From assembly GCF_001753165.1 (NCBI RefSeq), contig NZ_CP017448.1, positions 2,917,183-2,981,182 of the forward strand: DNA of 64,000 bases. Reading direction: 5' to 3'. Below, piece by piece: positions 43,599-50,356 of this stretch (position 1 is its first letter; the number at the start of each line of letters is the position of its first letter). The DNA comes from Acidihalobacter aeolianus (lineage in GTDB: Bacteria > Pseudomonadota > Gammaproteobacteria > DSM-5130 > Acidihalobacteraceae). Under the pieces are notes generated by a model. The model ran no database searches, was not told the origin of the DNA, and was given only the letters and a program-made list of their open reading frames with translations. Position numbers and translations under genes: made by a program.

Positions 43599-44642
43599 CT
43601 AGGCCCTGCCAGTATGCCCGGGCGCCGGCGCGACCACTGGGGCCGGCGCGAACCCCATGTGCCGCATGTCAGAGGGAGGCATGCCGTGATGTAACCACGC
43701 GGCAAGCGCCAACACCAGAACCCCAAGCACACTTTCAATGTGCACCGCACGCACGCAGCGCGCCATTACATGATTGCCGCCGCGCGTGGTGGACACAGGA
43801 CGCCAACCAGGTACGCGTAATCCCATCCCGGAAGCTCTGCCGCTGTCTAGGCCGCTGCTGAGACGCAATGCGGGTACCTTGTGATAGCGATTGTGACCGC
43901 CGAGGTAGACCATCCAGGCAACCAGGACCAACTTGATCGACAGTATGCGCCCGTAGCCGCTGTTCCAGAGATTTCCCACGCTGTCCAGGCCGTTCCACGC
44001 GTTGAACACACCCGACAACACAATCGCGGCAAGGGCAGCACCTGCCACAACCGACAGACGTGAAAACACGTCCGCGGCGAGAGCCTGTCCCGTTACGCCC
44101 TCCTTGATCAATGCAGGGAACACCAGCAGCGACATCGCGAACAGTCCACCAACCCAGATCCCACTCGACCAGACGTGGACGCAGTCGACCCATACGCCGA
44201 GCGAGTAAGCCCCATGGTCGCCCGCATGCCCCGTGGCACTGCGCGAGTACACGACGACCAGCAGCACAGCCATGGCCAGCCATGCGGCATACGGCCGCGC
44301 ACGCGCGGAAAGACCTGCAAGCCAGCACAGCCACAGTACGACTACAGCGAAGATCCGCGCCTTCCAGATCAGGCCGTAGTGGGTCTTGCTCACGACCAGT
44401 GGGAGATAGGTCGACAGACCCGAGAAGCCAGCACCGCTGAATTCCATGGTGCGCGAGGCGAGCAGGACGACGCTGGCTGCCGCCAGCCAGGCAAGAGCCG
44501 CACCGAAACCCACCCATAGCCTGGTCGGATAATGCCCCGGCGCATACCGGGGCACGACCCACAGCACACAGGCGAGCACGCCTGCACAGGCGGAGATGGC
44601 CATCACGTCCAGCCAAGTGGCAAGAACGAAGAAGCTCTCCAT
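43599..44642 (-). CDS. copper resistance protein CopD-like membrane protein
   Basis: Polytopic inner-membrane protein of the CopD/YcnJ type (347 residues, eight or so hydrophobic helices). Family marks include FGAALAWLAAASVVLLASRTMEF, HYGLIWKARIFAVVVLW, VHVWSSGIWVGGLFAMSLLVFP and the His-rich patch near GGHNRYHKVPAL. CopD is thought to move copper across the inner membrane together with periplasmic CopC, whose gene is 7 bases upstream in the same direction. Confidence 0.88.
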   Translation of the reverse strand: MESFFVLATWLDVMAISACAGVLACVLWVVPRYAPGHYPTRLWVGFGAALAWLAAASVVLLASRTMEFSGAGFSGLSTYLPLVVSKTHYGLIWKARIFAVVVLWLCWLAGLSARARPYAAWLAMAVLLVVVYSRSATGHAGDHGAYSLGVWVDCVHVWSSGIWVGGLFAMSLLVFPALIKEGVTGQALAADVFSRLSVVAGAALAAIVLSGVFNAWNGLDSVGNLWNSGYGRILSIKLVLVAWMVYLGGHNRYHKVPALRLSSGLDSGRASGMGLRVPGWRPVSTTRGGNHVMARCVRAVHIESVLGVLVLALAAWLHHGMPPSDMRHMGFAPAPVVAPAPGHTGRA

Positions 44643-44649
44643 GTCCGCG

Positions 44650-45021
44650 CTACTTCACGGCAAACGGAAACTTGCCCTCGGTATGGTGGCCGTCACGGGC
44701 GACCACGCTCCACTGCACCCAGTACTGACCGGCTGCGAGCGGCTTGACGGCAGTCGTCAGTAACCGCGGATTGCCCGCAGCCATATGACTACCGCCCGTG
44801 CTCACCACCTGCCCCGCAGCGCTCTCCACCGTGATCTTGGAGAACAGCGCGTTGAGGTCCGCATCGAACCAGATACTGACCTGCTTGGGTGCCACGGCAA
44901 GCGTGGAACCCACCTTGGGGGAAGACTTGACCGGAAAGGCGTGCGCCAGTGCAGGTGCGGATACGACCAGACTAGCCAGCAGGCCGAACGTGGCCCCGAA
45001 GTACTTCAAGTAACGCAACAT
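44650..45021 (-). CDS. copC: periplasmic copper-binding protein CopC
   Basis: Small exported copper chaperone (123 residues). The signal peptide ends at PALA, leaving mature HAFPVKSSPK with an N-terminal histidine, the usual first Cu(II) ligand. The barrel has SIWFDADLNALFSKITVE and the second site region YWVQWSVVARDGHHTEGKFPF. The Met-rich Cu(I) site of plasmid CopC is not obvious. It lies between copD and the outer-membrane-like gene, all in the same direction, so likely one copper operon. Confidence 0.92.
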   Translation of the reverse strand: MLRYLKYFGATFGLLASLVVSAPALAHAFPVKSSPKVGSTLAVAPKQVSIWFDADLNALFSKITVESAAGQVVSTGGSHMAAGNPRLLTTAVKPLAAGQYWVQWSVVARDGHHTEGKFPFAVK

Positions 45022-45082: not shown

Positions 45083-45988
45083 TCAGCCGAAGATCGGTGC
45101 GCCGAGGCTGTGCGGAAGGACGTCGTCCAGATACACGTCGATGCCCAGCAGAATGCCCACGTGGTTGCCGGAAGCCCTATTCGCCGGGATCTGCGCCTCA
45201 ACGCCGATCTGGTAGTACTTGCCCACCCAGATCACGCCCGGGTTCATGCTGCCGGTGCGGTCGAGGCTGCCACTGCTTGCGCAGACAGAGTAGCTGTCCA
45301 CGCACTGCGACATGGTGTACTCGACGATCGGCACCATGTTGTTGAACGGCGCACCAAGGCCAACATCCTTCACGAAGCTCTGCAGGTACGGGATGCTGTA
45401 CTGCAGGGACAAGCCCCAGTTGAGCATCTTGGGTTGCGTGGAATCGGACGGCATATCCTCCGAGATCGCGCCGGAAATCGCCAGGGGGCGCAGGTACTTC
45501 ACCGACCACGGCAGGTCGCCGAAGCCCTTGCCGAAGGCGAATTCGGGGGAAATCGTGGAGAAATTGCTGTCCATGCCGCCACTGCCGCTGTTCGCCAGCG
45601 TGTCGCTTACGGCCAGCATGCCGATGGCCTCGTGCGGACCGTTGACGAACAGCTGGTAGGCCGCGCCGATGGTGACGTTGTCCCAACCGCTCTGGTTGGG
45701 TTGCCCAGGCTGGGTGATCCAGTTGTAGTCGGAGGCGATGCTCAGACCGAACTTCGGCGTGATCGTCTTGGCATAGGCAAAGGCGAGGTTCTTGGTGGTC
45801 ACGCCATCGGCCTTGATCTGGCTGTAGTTGGTCGAGAACTCGTTGGCCACGCCCGGGTCGTCGAAGCTCAAGGTCGCCGGGAACACGCGCATGCCTGCCA
45901 CCGCATGCGCCCAGGTAACCGCCGGCATGATCAGCGCAGCCGAAACCACAAGCCCAGCGCCGAATCGCCCGAAATGGTGATGTCGCAT
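45083..45988 (-). CDS. exported outer-membrane beta-barrel-like protein of the copper operon
   Basis: 301 residues with a signal peptide (residues 10-27, ending VTWAHA) followed by alternating beta-strand patterns (FAYAKTITPKFGLSIASDYN, VTIGAAYQLFVNGPHEAIGM, WVGKYYQIGVEAQIPANRAS). Two cysteines occur in TMSQCVDSYSVCASSG. It resembles the uncharacterised barrel proteins found next to copC/copD, and I know no assigned function. It is first in the operon and divergent from the regB-like gene; the shared 222-base gap holds a palindrome. Confidence 0.7.
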   Translation of the reverse strand: MRHHHFGRFGAGLVVSAALIMPAVTWAHAVAGMRVFPATLSFDDPGVANEFSTNYSQIKADGVTTKNLAFAYAKTITPKFGLSIASDYNWITQPGQPNQSGWDNVTIGAAYQLFVNGPHEAIGMLAVSDTLANSGSGGMDSNFSTISPEFAFGKGFGDLPWSVKYLRPLAISGAISEDMPSDSTQPKMLNWGLSLQYSIPYLQSFVKDVGLGAPFNNMVPIVEYTMSQCVDSYSVCASSGSLDRTGSMNPGVIWVGKYYQIGVEAQIPANRASGNHVGILLGIDVYLDDVLPHSLGAPIFG

Positions 45989-46063
45989 CCTGCCTTCCTC
46001 CTAATAACTAGTGTAGTGATTTTTGATAAGGGAGAATTATCATCACAAAAACAACTGCCTGTC

Positions 46064-46082
46064 CTGCGACACAGTGTCGCAG
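46064..46082. promoter_or_regulatory. RegA-type operator palindrome
   Basis: Perfect inverted repeat with 9-base arms and a single central base: CTGCGACAC A GTGTCGCAG. It contains TGCGAC and GTCGC half sites separated as in the published RegA/PrrA box (roughly YGCGRC-N-GNCGC). It lies between the copper barrel gene (start 45988, leftward) and the regB-like gene (start 46211, rightward), so it could control either or both. Confidence 0.6.
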
Positions 46083-46210
46083 CCGCCCCATAAACCGCGT
46101 GATTTGCGGCAGAAAATGGAACTATCATCTGCTTTCGTGATCGAAGCGGCCATGGCGTGTTCCCATCCCGTCCGCTTCGAACGGACCTGGATAGCCGTCA
46201 AGGGAAGGAT

Positions 46211-47500
46211 ATGAACGTCGAAGCCGGCGAAGTGGTGCGCAAGCCCGGACGCCCCGGCAAACTCAACCTCCAGCGCCTGTACGTCATGCGCAATCTCGCG
46301 GTCGCCGCCCAGTTGGGGGCGATCGTCGTCGCGCACGAGATTTTCCGCATCCATCTGCCCCTCGACCCCCTGCTGCTGGTGATCGGGGGGCTGGCCGCGA
46401 TCAACCTGCTCACCTGGCTGCGGCTGCAGACCAATCAGGACTGCGGCGAAGGCGAATTCCTGTTTCAGCTGCTGCTGGACATCGGCGCGCTGACCGCCGT
46501 CCTCTACTTCACCGGCGGCGCCACCAACCCCTTCGTCGGCCTGTTCCTACTGCCGCTCACCATCGCGGCTACCGTGCTGCGCCCCTATTACACCTGGCTG
46601 CTCGCAGCGATCACGGTCGTTGCCTACACCTGGCTGATGAATCATTACGTACCCATGCCGCCGGCCATCGGCGTGGCTGCCACGGACTTCGACCCGATGG
46701 TCACCGGCATGTGGCTGCGCTTCGTGATCAATTCGGCGCTGATCGCCTACTTCGTCGTCGGCATGGCCGAAACCCTGCGCCAGCGCGACCACAAACTCGC
46801 CCTGGCCCGCGAGGAAACCCTGCGCAACGAACGACTGGTGGCGCTGGGCATGCTCTCGGCCGGCGCCGCACACGAGCTGGGCACCCCGCTGGCCACACTC
46901 GCCACGCTGACCGGCGAACTCAAGCACCGTTATCAGAGCCCGGAATATGCAGAGCTGCAGGAAAGCCTCTGTCTCATGCGCGGCCAGATCGATCGCTGCA
47001 AGGAAGCCCTGAGCGAGATATCGGCCTCGGCCGGTGGGCAACAGGCCCAAGCGGGTCATGCCGTGCCCGTTCGGGGTTACCTGCTCGACACCCTGGCACA
47101 ATGGGCACGCATGCGTCCCGGCGTGGCGGTGACGCCGCACTTGGACGGCCCCGACTCCCAACCGTGCATCCTGACCGAACGCACCCTGTCGCAGGCCATC
47201 ATCACCATGCTCAACAATGCGGCCGACGCCTCGCCGCAGGCCGTCGAACTCAATGCCCACTGGGACAACGCGGAGCTGGTTCTAGAAGTCTGCGACCGCG
47301 GTGCCGGTCTCGCCCCGGCGGCCTCTGCCAACGTCGGGCAATCCCCATTTTCCACCAAGGAACAAGGGCTCGGGCTCGGGCTCTATCTGGCGCATGCCGC
47401 AATCACGCGGGTTGGCGGGCGGGTATCCCTGCTCGACCGCCCCGGCGGCGGTACCTGCGCCCGTGTGGAACTGCCCCTCAACCGACTCTCAGCGACTTGA
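46211..47500 (+). CDS. RegB/PrrB-like redox sensor histidine kinase
   Basis: Membrane sensor of the RegBA (PrrBA) redox system. Six hydrophobic segments span about residues 25-175. The quinone-sensing motif GGATNPF is at 102-108. The phospho-accepting histidine is His221 in GAAHELGTPLATLATLTGEL, and the redox-active cysteine position is conserved as Cys263 (QIDRCKEALSEIS). An ATP-binding domain closes the protein (LNNAADASP, GLGLGLYLAHAAI). ATG 46211 follows AAGGGAAGG. 429 residues. All three hallmarks make the assignment firm. It is followed after 4 bases by its response regulator gene. Confidence 0.92.
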   Translation: MNVEAGEVVRKPGRPGKLNLQRLYVMRNLAVAAQLGAIVVAHEIFRIHLPLDPLLLVIGGLAAINLLTWLRLQTNQDCGEGEFLFQLLLDIGALTAVLYFTGGATNPFVGLFLLPLTIAATVLRPYYTWLLAAITVVAYTWLMNHYVPMPPAIGVAATDFDPMVTGMWLRFVINSALIAYFVVGMAETLRQRDHKLALAREETLRNERLVALGMLSAGAAHELGTPLATLATLTGELKHRYQSPEYAELQESLCLMRGQIDRCKEALSEISASAGGQQAQAGHAVPVRGYLLDTLAQWARMRPGVAVTPHLDGPDSQPCILTERTLSQAIITMLNNAADASPQAVELNAHWDNAELVLEVCDRGAGLAPAASANVGQSPFSTKEQGLGLGLYLAHAAITRVGGRVSLLDRPGGGTCARVELPLNRLSAT

Positions 47501-48078: not shown

Positions 48079-48441
48079 CTAGCCGACCCGCGCCGCCCTC
48101 AGATCCAGGATCGGCACACCCGAGGCGCGCGCGCGCGCGACCAGATCCGGGGTGCCGCGCCCGCCCGGGAAGGCGACCAGCAGATCCGGCCGCCCCTCGT
48201 CGAAGATACGGCCGTGCCGCGCCGGCCCCGCCGCGAAACCCAGGCGTCGCCACTCCGCAGCATAGATTTCGGTCGGGATACCCTGCTGATCGGCCCAGGC
48301 CTGCGCCAAGCTGTCCGTCTCGCTGCTGCCGCCATGCATCACGCAGCCGATGGACCAGCGCTCATGCACCGAATACAGCGCGTGATACACGCGCGAATGG
48401 GCATTGTCCGACGTCCCGCCGGCCACCAGTACGCGCTTCAT
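48079..48441 (-). CDS. DUF2493 (SLOG-like nucleotide-binding) protein
   Basis: 120 residues with the DUF2493/SLOG pattern: MKRVLVAGGTSDNAHSRVYH, CVMHGGSSETDSLAQAWADQ, GRIFDEGRPDLLVAFPGGRG and TPDLVARARASGVPILDL. The glycine-rich HGGSS and PGGRG loops are expected to bind a nucleotide or nucleotide-derived ligand. The function of solitary members is not established. Its ATG overlaps the upstream Sel1 gene stop by 4 bases, so it is the last gene of a three-gene unit with the cytochrome b. Confidence 0.85.
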   Translation of the reverse strand: MKRVLVAGGTSDNAHSRVYHALYSVHERWSIGCVMHGGSSETDSLAQAWADQQGIPTEIYAAEWRRLGFAAGPARHGRIFDEGRPDLLVAFPGGRGTPDLVARARASGVPILDLRAARVG

Positions 48442-49016
48442 GACGAGGCACCTCCTGCCAGCCAGGCGCGAGCCTTCGCACGCGCCTGATGAGCTGCGGG
48501 CGCGCCGATATCAGCCGCCAGACTCTCGGCAACCGGCCGCCAGGCGGCCGAACGACGCCCCGCCAGCCAGTACCAGGCATAAGCACGGCTGACGTCACGC
48601 GTGACACCCTCACCGAGGTAATAGGCATTGCCCAGCGCGGCCAACGCATGCACGCTACCGAGCTTGGCGGCGCGCCGATACCAGCTTACGGCGCGAACCG
48701 GATCGCGTGGCACGCCGTGCCCGAAGGCGTACAGGTAACCGAGGTTCAGTGCCGCTGTCCGATTCCCTCCGGCCGCCGACAGGCGATAGTCATGTATCGC
48801 CCGGCCAGCATCCCCGCGGCTCTCCCAATACGCCCCAAGCCAATTCATGGCCACCGCGTCGCCCGCGTGGGCCGCAATGTCGAGACGCAGATAGGCGCGC
48901 GTATCATGTTCCAGTGCCGCAACCGCAAGGCGATGGCCCTCGGCCGCGGTCATGCCTTGCGCCCACGCGACGCCCGGCAGCACCAGGGAGGCAATCACGA
49001 TAGCCAAGCGCTTCAT
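48438..49016 (-). CDS. exported Sel1-repeat protein
   Basis: Signal peptide MKRLAIVIASLVLPGVAWA, then Sel1-like alpha-helical repeats (AVAMNWLGAYWESRGDAGRA; AALNLGYLYAFGHGVPRDPV; ALAALGNAYYLGEGVTRDVS), each about 36 residues. Sel1 repeats form protein-interaction solenoids, so a periplasmic adaptor role is likely. ATG 49016 overlaps the cytochrome b stop (ATGA). 192 residues. Confidence 0.88.
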   Translation of the reverse strand: MKRLAIVIASLVLPGVAWAQGMTAAEGHRLAVAALEHDTRAYLRLDIAAHAGDAVAMNWLGAYWESRGDAGRAIHDYRLSAAGGNRTAALNLGYLYAFGHGVPRDPVRAVSWYRRAAKLGSVHALAALGNAYYLGEGVTRDVSRAYAWYWLAGRRSAAWRPVAESLAADIGAPAAHQARAKARAWLAGGASS

Positions 49017-49609
49017 TGCTGGCGCACCCTGCGCGGACCAAACATCGATGACACCACCGGCTGGCGTGCCAGCTGATGGATCACCACGATACTGACGTGG
49101 CCGATCCAATAGGCCCATGCGAGATAGGAGATCAGATTGTGTGTCTCGGACACGGCGGTGAACATGGCAGCGCCGTGCATGCCCTTGAAGGACGGACGGA
49201 GCATCAGATTGAGCACCCCGGTCAACCCCATGCCGGTCATGGTCAGAAAGCCCAGGCCGTGGATATAACTCGGCAGACCCACGCGGGGCCCGGATTCCGG
49301 TAGTTGGCCACGCAGCAGACCACGCAGGTCGGCGAGGACGGCACGGCGTCCGCTCGGATACCAGGGGAACAACTGCGAGAGGTACCAGCCCTGCCGATAG
49401 CGCACCACCCAGAACCAATGGGCCGCAATTACGCAGGCTGCAGTCACGCCGACGATTTGATGCAGCAGAAATACATCCGCCGTCTGCGGCGTGGACATGT
49501 CCAGGCTAGTGAACAGCTGAAAGGTGATGGTGAGAGCCATCCCCATGTGCAGCCAACGGATGGTCGGGTCCCAGGGTTGAACTGGTTTGGGAGCGTGCAT
49601 CGTCATCAT
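49013..49609 (-). CDS. cytochrome b561-type membrane protein
   Basis: Four-helix di-haem cytochrome b of the b561/HydC type (198 residues). Candidate haem histidines are in IRWLHMGMALT, DVFLLHQIVGVT, YIHGLGFLTMTG and WIGHVSIVVIHQL. GGAGGCGAG precedes ATG 49609. It is likely to pass electrons between quinone and a periplasmic partner. The gene is followed by the Sel1 and DUF2493 genes in an overlapping unit, and a cytochrome c gene lies 240 bases upstream in the same direction, which would be a natural partner (inference). Confidence 0.85.
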   Translation of the reverse strand: MMTMHAPKPVQPWDPTIRWLHMGMALTITFQLFTSLDMSTPQTADVFLLHQIVGVTAACVIAAHWFWVVRYRQGWYLSQLFPWYPSGRRAVLADLRGLLRGQLPESGPRVGLPSYIHGLGFLTMTGMGLTGVLNLMLRPSFKGMHGAAMFTAVSETHNLISYLAWAYWIGHVSIVVIHQLARQPVVSSMFGPRRVRQQ

Positions 49610-49846
49610 CTCGCCTCCATCGCGGTTTCGTACCGCACCTCCTGCGCGGAGGCACGGCACCACTCTGGATCAGACAATGCACACTGCGCGCCAGCATGGA
49701 ACATATTGGATTCAGGACATCTCAATCCGCCCATAACCCATGCGCCGCGCGGTTTTCACGCGATGGCGGCAGACTTCCAAACACAGCGGACGCCCAGCCT
49801 AGTGGCTCAGCCTGAGGCCCGCATGGCGCAAAACGAGTCCGTCCGG

Positions 49847-50212
49847 TCAGTCGACCAGCTTCAGAATCATCTTGGCCAGTACGGCCGCCTGCGCGTTGTT
49901 GGCCATACCCGGCGGCATCGGAGGATACCCGGCCCACAGGCCGCTGCTGCCGTTGGCGATGGCCTTTGTCACCTCAGCCTCGGCATTGGGCTTGCCGTGA
50001 TAGCGCAGCGCCACGTCCTCCCAAGGCGGCCCCACCACGCGGTGATTGATCGCATGGCAACCCATGCACGCCAAGCCGTTGGACTTGACGTAGGACAACA
50101 GCTTGGAGGCATCCGCCTGGTTGATTTTCGGCCCGGCCAGCGCGGGCACCGTGGTCCCGGCAAGCATCAGTGCGATGCCGGTCATGCTCAACATCCGTGA
50201 GATTTTTTTCAT
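49847..50212 (-). CDS. periplasmic class I cytochrome c
   Basis: 121-residue exported cytochrome c. Signal peptide MKKISRMLSMTGIALMLAG ending near ALAG. One haem motif CMGCH (in NGLACMGCHAINHRVVGPP) and an axial methionine in YPPMPPG. The pattern HRVVGPPWEDVALRY is seen in cytochromes c5/c-551. GGGAG lies upstream of ATG 50212, which I prefer over the longer reading to 50,269. It is the likely electron partner of the cytochrome b encoded next to it. Confidence 0.92.
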   Translation of the reverse strand: MKKISRMLSMTGIALMLAGTTVPALAGPKINQADASKLLSYVKSNGLACMGCHAINHRVVGPPWEDVALRYHGKPNAEAEVTKAIANGSSGLWAGYPPMPPGMANNAQAAVLAKMILKLVD

Positions 50213-50356
50213 AGACGAAAACTCCCTGAGTAAACGACAGGCCGCGAATCTCGCCATGCCCAGAATCACTTTACCGCCGGGGCGCCCCGCAGCCCTTGAT
50301 CCTGGTCACGAAACCCATGGTTGAATATAGCGTGGGTCAAACCCGAAACAATTGTA

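Follow-up and report, generated by a model that had tools for sequence, protein, structure and literature searches.

Kinases of the RegB family sense redox state through the quinone pool and a reactive cysteine. The sites published for their partner regulators RegA, PrrA, and RegR are degenerate and variable in spacing, whereas a single 17-bp dyad of fixed spacing recurs in the Gammaproteobacteria studied here. RegA sites have been described in Rhodobacter capsulatus, for example, GCGACCGTTCGTCGC at ccoN (PMC5359404), a strong consensus was not found for PrrA in the work reported in PMC4263372, and the search for RegA sites reported for At. ferrooxidans failed (PMC5506826). Because no sharp site is known, RegA regulons are hard to read.

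Several described systems resemble the one considered here. RegA of At. ferrooxidans binds cyo and the regulatory region of its own reg operon, mostly upstream of the -35 (PMC5506826), and both of these regions bear a dyad in our organism; that study differs from ours in that it identified no site, and its main text does not use the word copper. In Bradyrhizobium japonicum, the RegA orthologue RegR controls the copper homeostasis genes copCAB, copC being among the genes picked for qRT-PCR (PMC4064962). That system differs in belonging to an alphaproteobacterium and to anoxic denitrification, and the cop promoter lies outside the six promoters tested there by electrophoretic mobility shift (PMC4064962). 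A link between copper and RegA is also known from R. capsulatus, where RegA binds copper and senC-reg clusters occur (PMC9147068); unlike in those clusters, the SCO1/SenC genes of our organism lie elsewhere with a dyad of their own. Among the Gammaproteobacteria, RegA of Methylomonas sp. DH-1 is likewise linked to a TonB receptor and metal uptake, since it raises the expression of the receptor gene tbdr, tonB, and feo, with chromatin immunoprecipitation reporting binding at feo only (PMC13274454). The metal described there, in contrast, is iron, and the main text uses neither the word motif nor the word consensus. In Pseudomonas aeruginosa, the homologue RoxSR acts as a repressor of coxB and an activator of cio (PMC5436846). 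That RegA regulates its own operon and that RegR controls copCAB has already been published; a search of titles and abstract openings, in which few subscription papers were covered, yielded no report of the dyad or of a gammaproteobacterial RegA copper regulon.

The regB-regA locus and the divergent copper operon

We analyzed a 64-kb stretch of the genome of Acidihalobacter aeolianus DSM 14174 (the window), in which regB and regA are divergent from an operon carrying copC and copD (Table 1). RegB scored best against the ActS/PrrB/RegB profile at 239.9 bits, below the NCBIfam equivalog cut-off of 350, and RegA scored best against the ActR/PrrA/RegA profile at 202.6 bits, below the cut-off of 250. 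The two hallmarks of RegB (PMC8191878), a GGXXNPF quinone motif and, following the H-box, a reactive Cys, are present in the kinase, its C263 being equated with Cys265 by position only and not by alignment. The helix-turn-helix (HTH) of RegA matches that of PrrA (1umq) in an alignment in which C158, just before the HTH, falls on a Cys of PrrA; in R. capsulatus RegA, copper promotes disulfide formation by the Cys at the corresponding place (PMC9147068). Group 1 of the RegB/RegA systems is defined by cotranscription of regA and/or regB with senC (PMC9147068), an arrangement that is absent here, and a Pfam search of nine window proteins from around regBA detected no SCO1/SenC protein.

Table 1. 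Features of the regBA-copper operon region (window coordinates)
Feature	Position	Strand	Basis or remark
copD	43599..44642	-	PF05425, 7e-19
copC	44650..45021	-	PF04234, 7.6e-20
"barrel," first gene of divergent operon, unclassified, 301 aa	45083..45988	-	signal-peptide-like start by eye
Second perfect dyad, TGATAA-N7-TTATCA	46024..46042	.	overlaps barrel -10
Barrel-operon promoter-like sequence, AGGACA-18-GATAAT	46036..46065	-	sigma-70 scan; dyad centre about -44
Predicted RegA-box dyad, CTGCGACACAGTGTCGCAG	46064..46082	.	17-bp core TGCGACA-N3-TGTCGCA at 46065-46081
Possible regB -10, TATCAT	46123..46128	+	by eye; weak; missed by promoter scan
regB-type redox histidine kinase, 429 aa	46211..47500	+	best hit NF033792 (ActS/PrrB/RegB); GGATNPF at 102, H221, C263
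regA-type response regulator, 187 aa	47505..48068	+	Pfam receiver and Fis-type HTH (HTH_8); NF033791

The product of the first gene of the divergent operon, named "barrel" in an earlier note on this DNA, has no Pfam or NCBIfam match and is conserved in relatives. An AlphaFold model built on a four-row alignment had a mean pLDDT of 40.2 and was too poor to use.

A perfect dyad between regB and the copper operon

The earlier note had called attention to a perfect dyad with RegA/PrrA half sites in the region common to regBA and barrel-copC-copD, and that description holds. The dyad is exactly as it was written, with two perfect 9-bp arms flanking one central A, and the gene coordinates place it in the 222-bp gap between the start of regB (46211, plus strand) and that of the first gene of the copper operon (45988, minus strand). 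Read as GCGAC-ACAGT-GTCGC, it consists of inverted GCGNC / GNCGC half sites with a spacer of 5, the GCGAC-N5-GTCGC form of the published R. capsulatus RegA sites; its core fits the ccoN site, and it shares with the Rhodobacter and Bradyrhizobium RegA/PrrA/RegR sites the GCG-type inverted half sites and the short spacer. At up to three mismatches, the sequence occurs at one place only in the 64-kb window, with 100 shuffles averaging 0.05 matches.

The promoter-like sequence of the barrel operon adjoins the dyad and is the sole sigma-70-like site in 45950-46250, where shuffles gave a mean of 0.1. In the three Acidihalobacter species, the spacing between the dyad and the -10 is 23, 23, and 24 on the barrel side and 41, 49, and 47 on the side of the candidate regB -10. 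Relative to the starts implied by the -10 sequences, which apart from that of barrel were chosen by eye, the core centre is at -44, -44, and -45 for barrel and at -62, -70, and -68 for regB; at two further targets described below, the core centres are at -43 (SCO1) and at -60 and -102 (a TonB-receptor pair), each in all three species. Activator sites typically lie near -42 and -61. Since the dyads of three promoters occupy positions of this kind, RegA would be likelier to activate than to repress through them. The second perfect dyad, which is kept in all three species, has no other match in the window with one mismatch or none and occurs at 4 to 8 places per Acidihalobacter genome at the same threshold; it is possibly the operator of another regulator, such as a metal regulator.

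The dyad is conserved upstream of regB and co-occurs with RegB

The earlier note had named absence of the dyad upstream of regBA in close relatives as evidence against its proposal. Instead, the dyad is kept at the same place in both of the other genomes of the genus that we compared (G001 and G002), differing from the core by a single mismatch in each, and the one relative returned by a scan of genome contigs, L001, has a dyad upstream of regB. To extend the comparison, we used a sample of 370 gammaproteobacterial genomes, 110 of which encode RegB at an E value of 1e-60 or below, and took up to 3 kb (in a few cases less) upstream of regB at 80 loci from the 108 RegB genomes outside Acidihalobacter, choosing higher-scoring RegB proteins with room on the contig. 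In the 350 bp before regB, 51 of these 80 distant loci matched the dyad at no fewer than 12 of 14 fixed positions, compared with 8 of 547 control segments taken from further upstream of regB; at a threshold of at least 11, the numbers were 60/80 and 19/547. Twenty rounds of dinucleotide shuffling gave means of 0.1 and 1.8 per 80 loci at the two thresholds, respectively. The remaining 29 loci had no dyad of at least 12/14 within the 350 bp. Among the 51 loci, which were selected by their match, G2, G4, C6, G12, C14, and C16 are invariant and the centre is A/T rich.

The dyad also follows RegB across the sample. The exact pattern TGYGACANNNTGTCRCA is present in 74 of the 370 genomes, namely, in 55 of the 110 with RegB and in 19 of the 260 without it (Fisher P = 2.6e-19, uncorrected for genome relatedness), whereas the reversed control pattern showed no such difference (7/110 versus 12/260; P = 0.45). 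When sites within 500 bp of regB were excluded, exact dyads were still found in 36 of 80 RegB genomes versus 19 of 260 (P = 1.9e-13, again uncorrected for kinship); some of the sites in these 36 genomes are within a few kilobases of regB. Nineteen genomes without RegB at 1e-60 nonetheless carry the exact dyad. A search of plasmids returned 23 records, mostly from Azospirillum, and the five matches listed all fell on RegB/RegA-like genes. Together with its retention upstream of regB, this co-occurrence supports the proposal of the earlier note that RegA would control its own operon.

Further dyads in the genus

Scanning the A. aeolianus genome (3,526,118 bases, with a main contig of 3,363,634) for the dyad, as the earlier note had advised, returned a single exact copy of the core, that of the window. 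At up to two mismatches, the core matched at 24 places compared with 31 for the reversed control, so there is no enrichment and the weak matches are mostly chance. Eleven of the 24 are inside predicted genes, and those at 447967 (just before a ResB-like gene, as judged by eye), 1641370, and 3253298 seem to be intergenic; the 24 also include 1716467, 1830820, 2551565, and 2977209. A looser pattern, TGCGAC-N5-GTCGCA with two mismatches, was discarded, having given 233 matches versus 563 for its reversed control. Among its listed matches with one mismatch, and leaving the TonB-receptor pair aside, nine of ten places were inside genes according to a simple gene caller and one, at 428865, was intergenic.

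Conservation singles out four sites in the genus, upstream of regB, a TonB receptor gene, SCO1/SenC, and cyoA. The TonB receptor region has a tandem pair of dyads 42 bp apart in all three genomes, and TGCGACACTTTGTCACT stands upstream of two SCO1/SenC genes, whose products match PF02630, likewise in all three; when these two upstream regions are aligned, the best-kept blocks include the dyads. The cyoA site is about 440 nucleotides upstream of cyoA in the three genomes and, in the two inspected, inside the end of the preceding open reading frame (ORF). All six PDB sequences matched by the TonB receptor (L077:4689-6935, outside the window) at 0.001 are OprC, and its plug has a CxxxM motif, ACPNHM, that aligns with ACPNRM of OprC, although against TIGR01778 (TonB-copper) it reaches 73.9 bits with a cut-off of 472.45. 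In OprC, the CxxxM motif binds copper. It is likely, judging from these sites, that RegA serves copper supply in Acidihalobacter.

The dyad-bearing SCO1 pair follows a gene for an unclassified membrane protein without a family and a urease-alpha-like gene recognized by eye (L080:10-1629 and 1825-2400). G001 and G002 have a second SCO1 pair (L094 and L095) near a gene that by eye is rusticyanin-like.

Two genomes of the sister genus (G003 and G004) contain no RegB at 1e-30 and, for RegA, only distant response regulators. Their cyoA genes, one copy in G003 and three in G004, have no dyad of at least 10 within 700 bp (0/4), nor does the second cyoA copy of G002. These two genomes also have no SCO1 of the dyad-bearing type at 1e-12 and no OprC-like TonB receptor at 1e-30, which is weak evidence because the same queries missed most RegB-bearing genomes of the class as well: the SCO1 query found nothing in 19 of the 19 searched and the TonB-receptor query nothing in 18 of 19. 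Since nothing close was found in most RegB-bearing genomes, the SCO1 and TonB-receptor targets are not general in the class. A. ferrooxydans is reported to be without copC and copD (PMC7760498).

Genes beside regB and beside exact dyads in the class

At L152 and L192, loci from two other families, regB likewise has the barrel-copC-copD operon beside it, with copD being 48% identical in L152; the dyad at these operon-bearing loci matches 13/14 positions in L192 but only 10 in L152. Nearest upstream ORFs, called by a length and GC3 rule that makes some of them wrong, were obtained at 79 of the 80 loci. By Pfam they include 13 PF13557-type barrels, 7 TonB receptors, 3 TonB proteins, 2 PCuAC proteins, and 2 FTR1 proteins, and one is CorA-like; the 77 second ORFs include 7 TonB receptors, 2 SCO1 proteins, and 1 MbnP. 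Many other regB neighbours have no metal link.

A recurring class of nearest neighbour is a Met/His/Cys-rich, barrel-like protein with the motif GLCCxKCGGNMPMN or PxGxMGxHxH, some members of which match PF13557. The two Met-rich barrel types distinguished by these motifs occupy 7 and 5 loci (L146, L150, L154, L161, L175, L178, L182, L185, L189, L205, L214, and L218), and a dyad of at least 12 is present at all 12. His, Met, and Cys content did not differ overall between nearest and second ORFs (Mann-Whitney P = 0.07); a content of at least 9% was found in 20 of 70 nearest and 6 of 64 second ORFs.

We also examined 20 regions in which exact dyads, 27 in all, lie at a distance from regB; the regions were taken from the matches listed for RegB genomes without sight of their contents. 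In seven of them (L243, L246, L251, L253, L256, L257, and L259), a TonB receptor gene starts within 220 bp of the dyad, and five more have Csp1 (L245, above cut-off), NosZ (L258, above cut-off), NosR (L250, below cut-off), an ExbB-like protein (L247), or a Met-rich barrel (L254), the barrels of L254 and L259 being recognized by motif. One of these proteins is thus beside the dyad in 12 of the 20 regions, a count made on its own and not against random regions; in our judgment, metal and copper genes are enriched at the exact dyads of this set. L248 encodes what by eye is probably a truncated barrel, and seven regions (L244, L249, L252, L255, L260, L261, and L262) have no recognized copper protein, L260 being Tll0287-like and L255 an aldo-keto reductase. 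Where dyads fell inside short predicted ORFs of the opposite strand, we took the ORFs to be spurious. The TonB receptors at exact dyads mostly scored best against siderophore or haem-type profiles, and of the six scanned with NCBIfam, that of L257 alone had the TonB-copper profile as its best hit (for L246 and L259, the scan was with Pfam alone). Two secreted proteins of L244 and L245 looked YcnI-like by eye, matched no family, and were left uncounted. Exact dyads are clustered at these two places: L245 (genome G173) has five in a stretch of about 9 kb around the Csp1 gene, and L244 (G300) has four in about 6 kb, around secreted proteins that are unclassified.

Role of the dyad

We consider it probable that the dyad is a RegA box common to regBA and the copper operon, predicted to serve autoregulation and redox control of copper supply. 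RegB would sense the redox state of the respiratory chain and phosphorylate RegA, dimers of which would bind dyads of the TGYGACA-N3-TGTCRCA type. A dimer at the dyad between the two divergent promoters would activate both regBA and barrel-copC-copD, and through matching dyads RegA would drive the OprC-like receptor, the SCO1/SenC copper-chaperone pair, and the cyo oxidase operon; if the signal is as supposed and copper is the main metal, copper import and delivery would thereby follow the demand of the copper-containing oxidases. The proposal builds on the observed sites: on how they are conserved and co-occur with RegB, how they are spaced from promoter-like sequences, and which genes they neighbour. 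The suggestion of the earlier note that copper handling is under redox control is accordingly strengthened as regards its targets, by the conserved dyads at the OprC-like receptor, the SCO1/SenC pair, and cyo and by the targets in the class. Which way the control runs, what the signal is, and that the metal is copper in particular are points that we infer.

The box might instead serve regBA autoregulation only, with the copper operon adjacent by chance and controlled by a copper sensor, perhaps through TGATAA-N7-TTATCA. Autoregulation is a widespread feature, the dyad often stays where the neighbours of regB vary, and the second dyad over the barrel -10 is independent of the first and retained in all three species. 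The near-constant spacing, however, is towards barrel and not towards the regB -10, regB has the same operon as its neighbour in two other families, and dyads recur at the OprC-like receptor and the SCO1 pair, which makes this account unlikely. Perfect palindromes are also typical of many dimeric repressors, and the dyad could belong to an unrelated repressor or nucleoid protein that happens to bind near regBA; given its co-occurrence with RegB, the match of its half sites, and its absence at cyo of the sister genomes that lack RegB, we regard this as very improbable.

How far the role of RegA extends beyond copper is a question of scope. It is possible, though we would not put it first, that RegA controls metal acquisition generally, iron as much as copper, and that the copper genes are merely this genus's share. 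Such a role is compatible with a shared RegA box at the site itself, so that the likelihoods that we attach to the two overlap. It would agree with the raised expression of feo, tbdr, and tonB reported for Methylomonas (PMC13274454), with the two FTR1-like nearest neighbours of regB, and with the siderophore and haem-type profiles preferred by most of the TonB receptors; against it, copper proteins turn up repeatedly at dyads or next to regB, namely, CopC, CopD, SCO1, Csp1, NosZ, NosR (below cut-off), PCuAC, MbnP, and the CorA-like protein. General metal uptake is the main rival to a broader and equally tentative idea, that gammaproteobacterial RegB/RegA by ancestry controls the supply of copper to respiration through one 17-bp dyad, with regBA, TonB-type receptors, Met/His/Cys-rich barrels divergent from regBA, SCO1, Csp1, NosZ, and cyo as its targets. 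On this idea, RegA may itself sense copper through the Cys before its HTH and so close a loop, by feedback or feed-forward.

With a fixed 17-bp dyad, the RegA regulons of Gammaproteobacteria would become predictable from sequence. Its recurrence at metal-uptake and copper-enzyme genes suggests that copper supply is matched to the state of the respiratory chain, and if the targets are as seen, redox sensing and copper acquisition would form one circuit. Such a circuit, if it exists, matters for copper-dependent oxidases, for the reduction of N2O, and for bacteria used in the leaching of copper ores.

Other features of the locus

Downstream of regA, on the opposite strand, are a YspA-type SLOG gene (48079-48441), a cytochrome b561-type gene (49013-49663), and a gene for a small cytochrome c (49847-50269). 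Upstream of regB, a further block, TGATTTGCGGYAGAAAAYGGAACTATCAT at 46100-46128, is conserved in the genus at least as well as the dyad.
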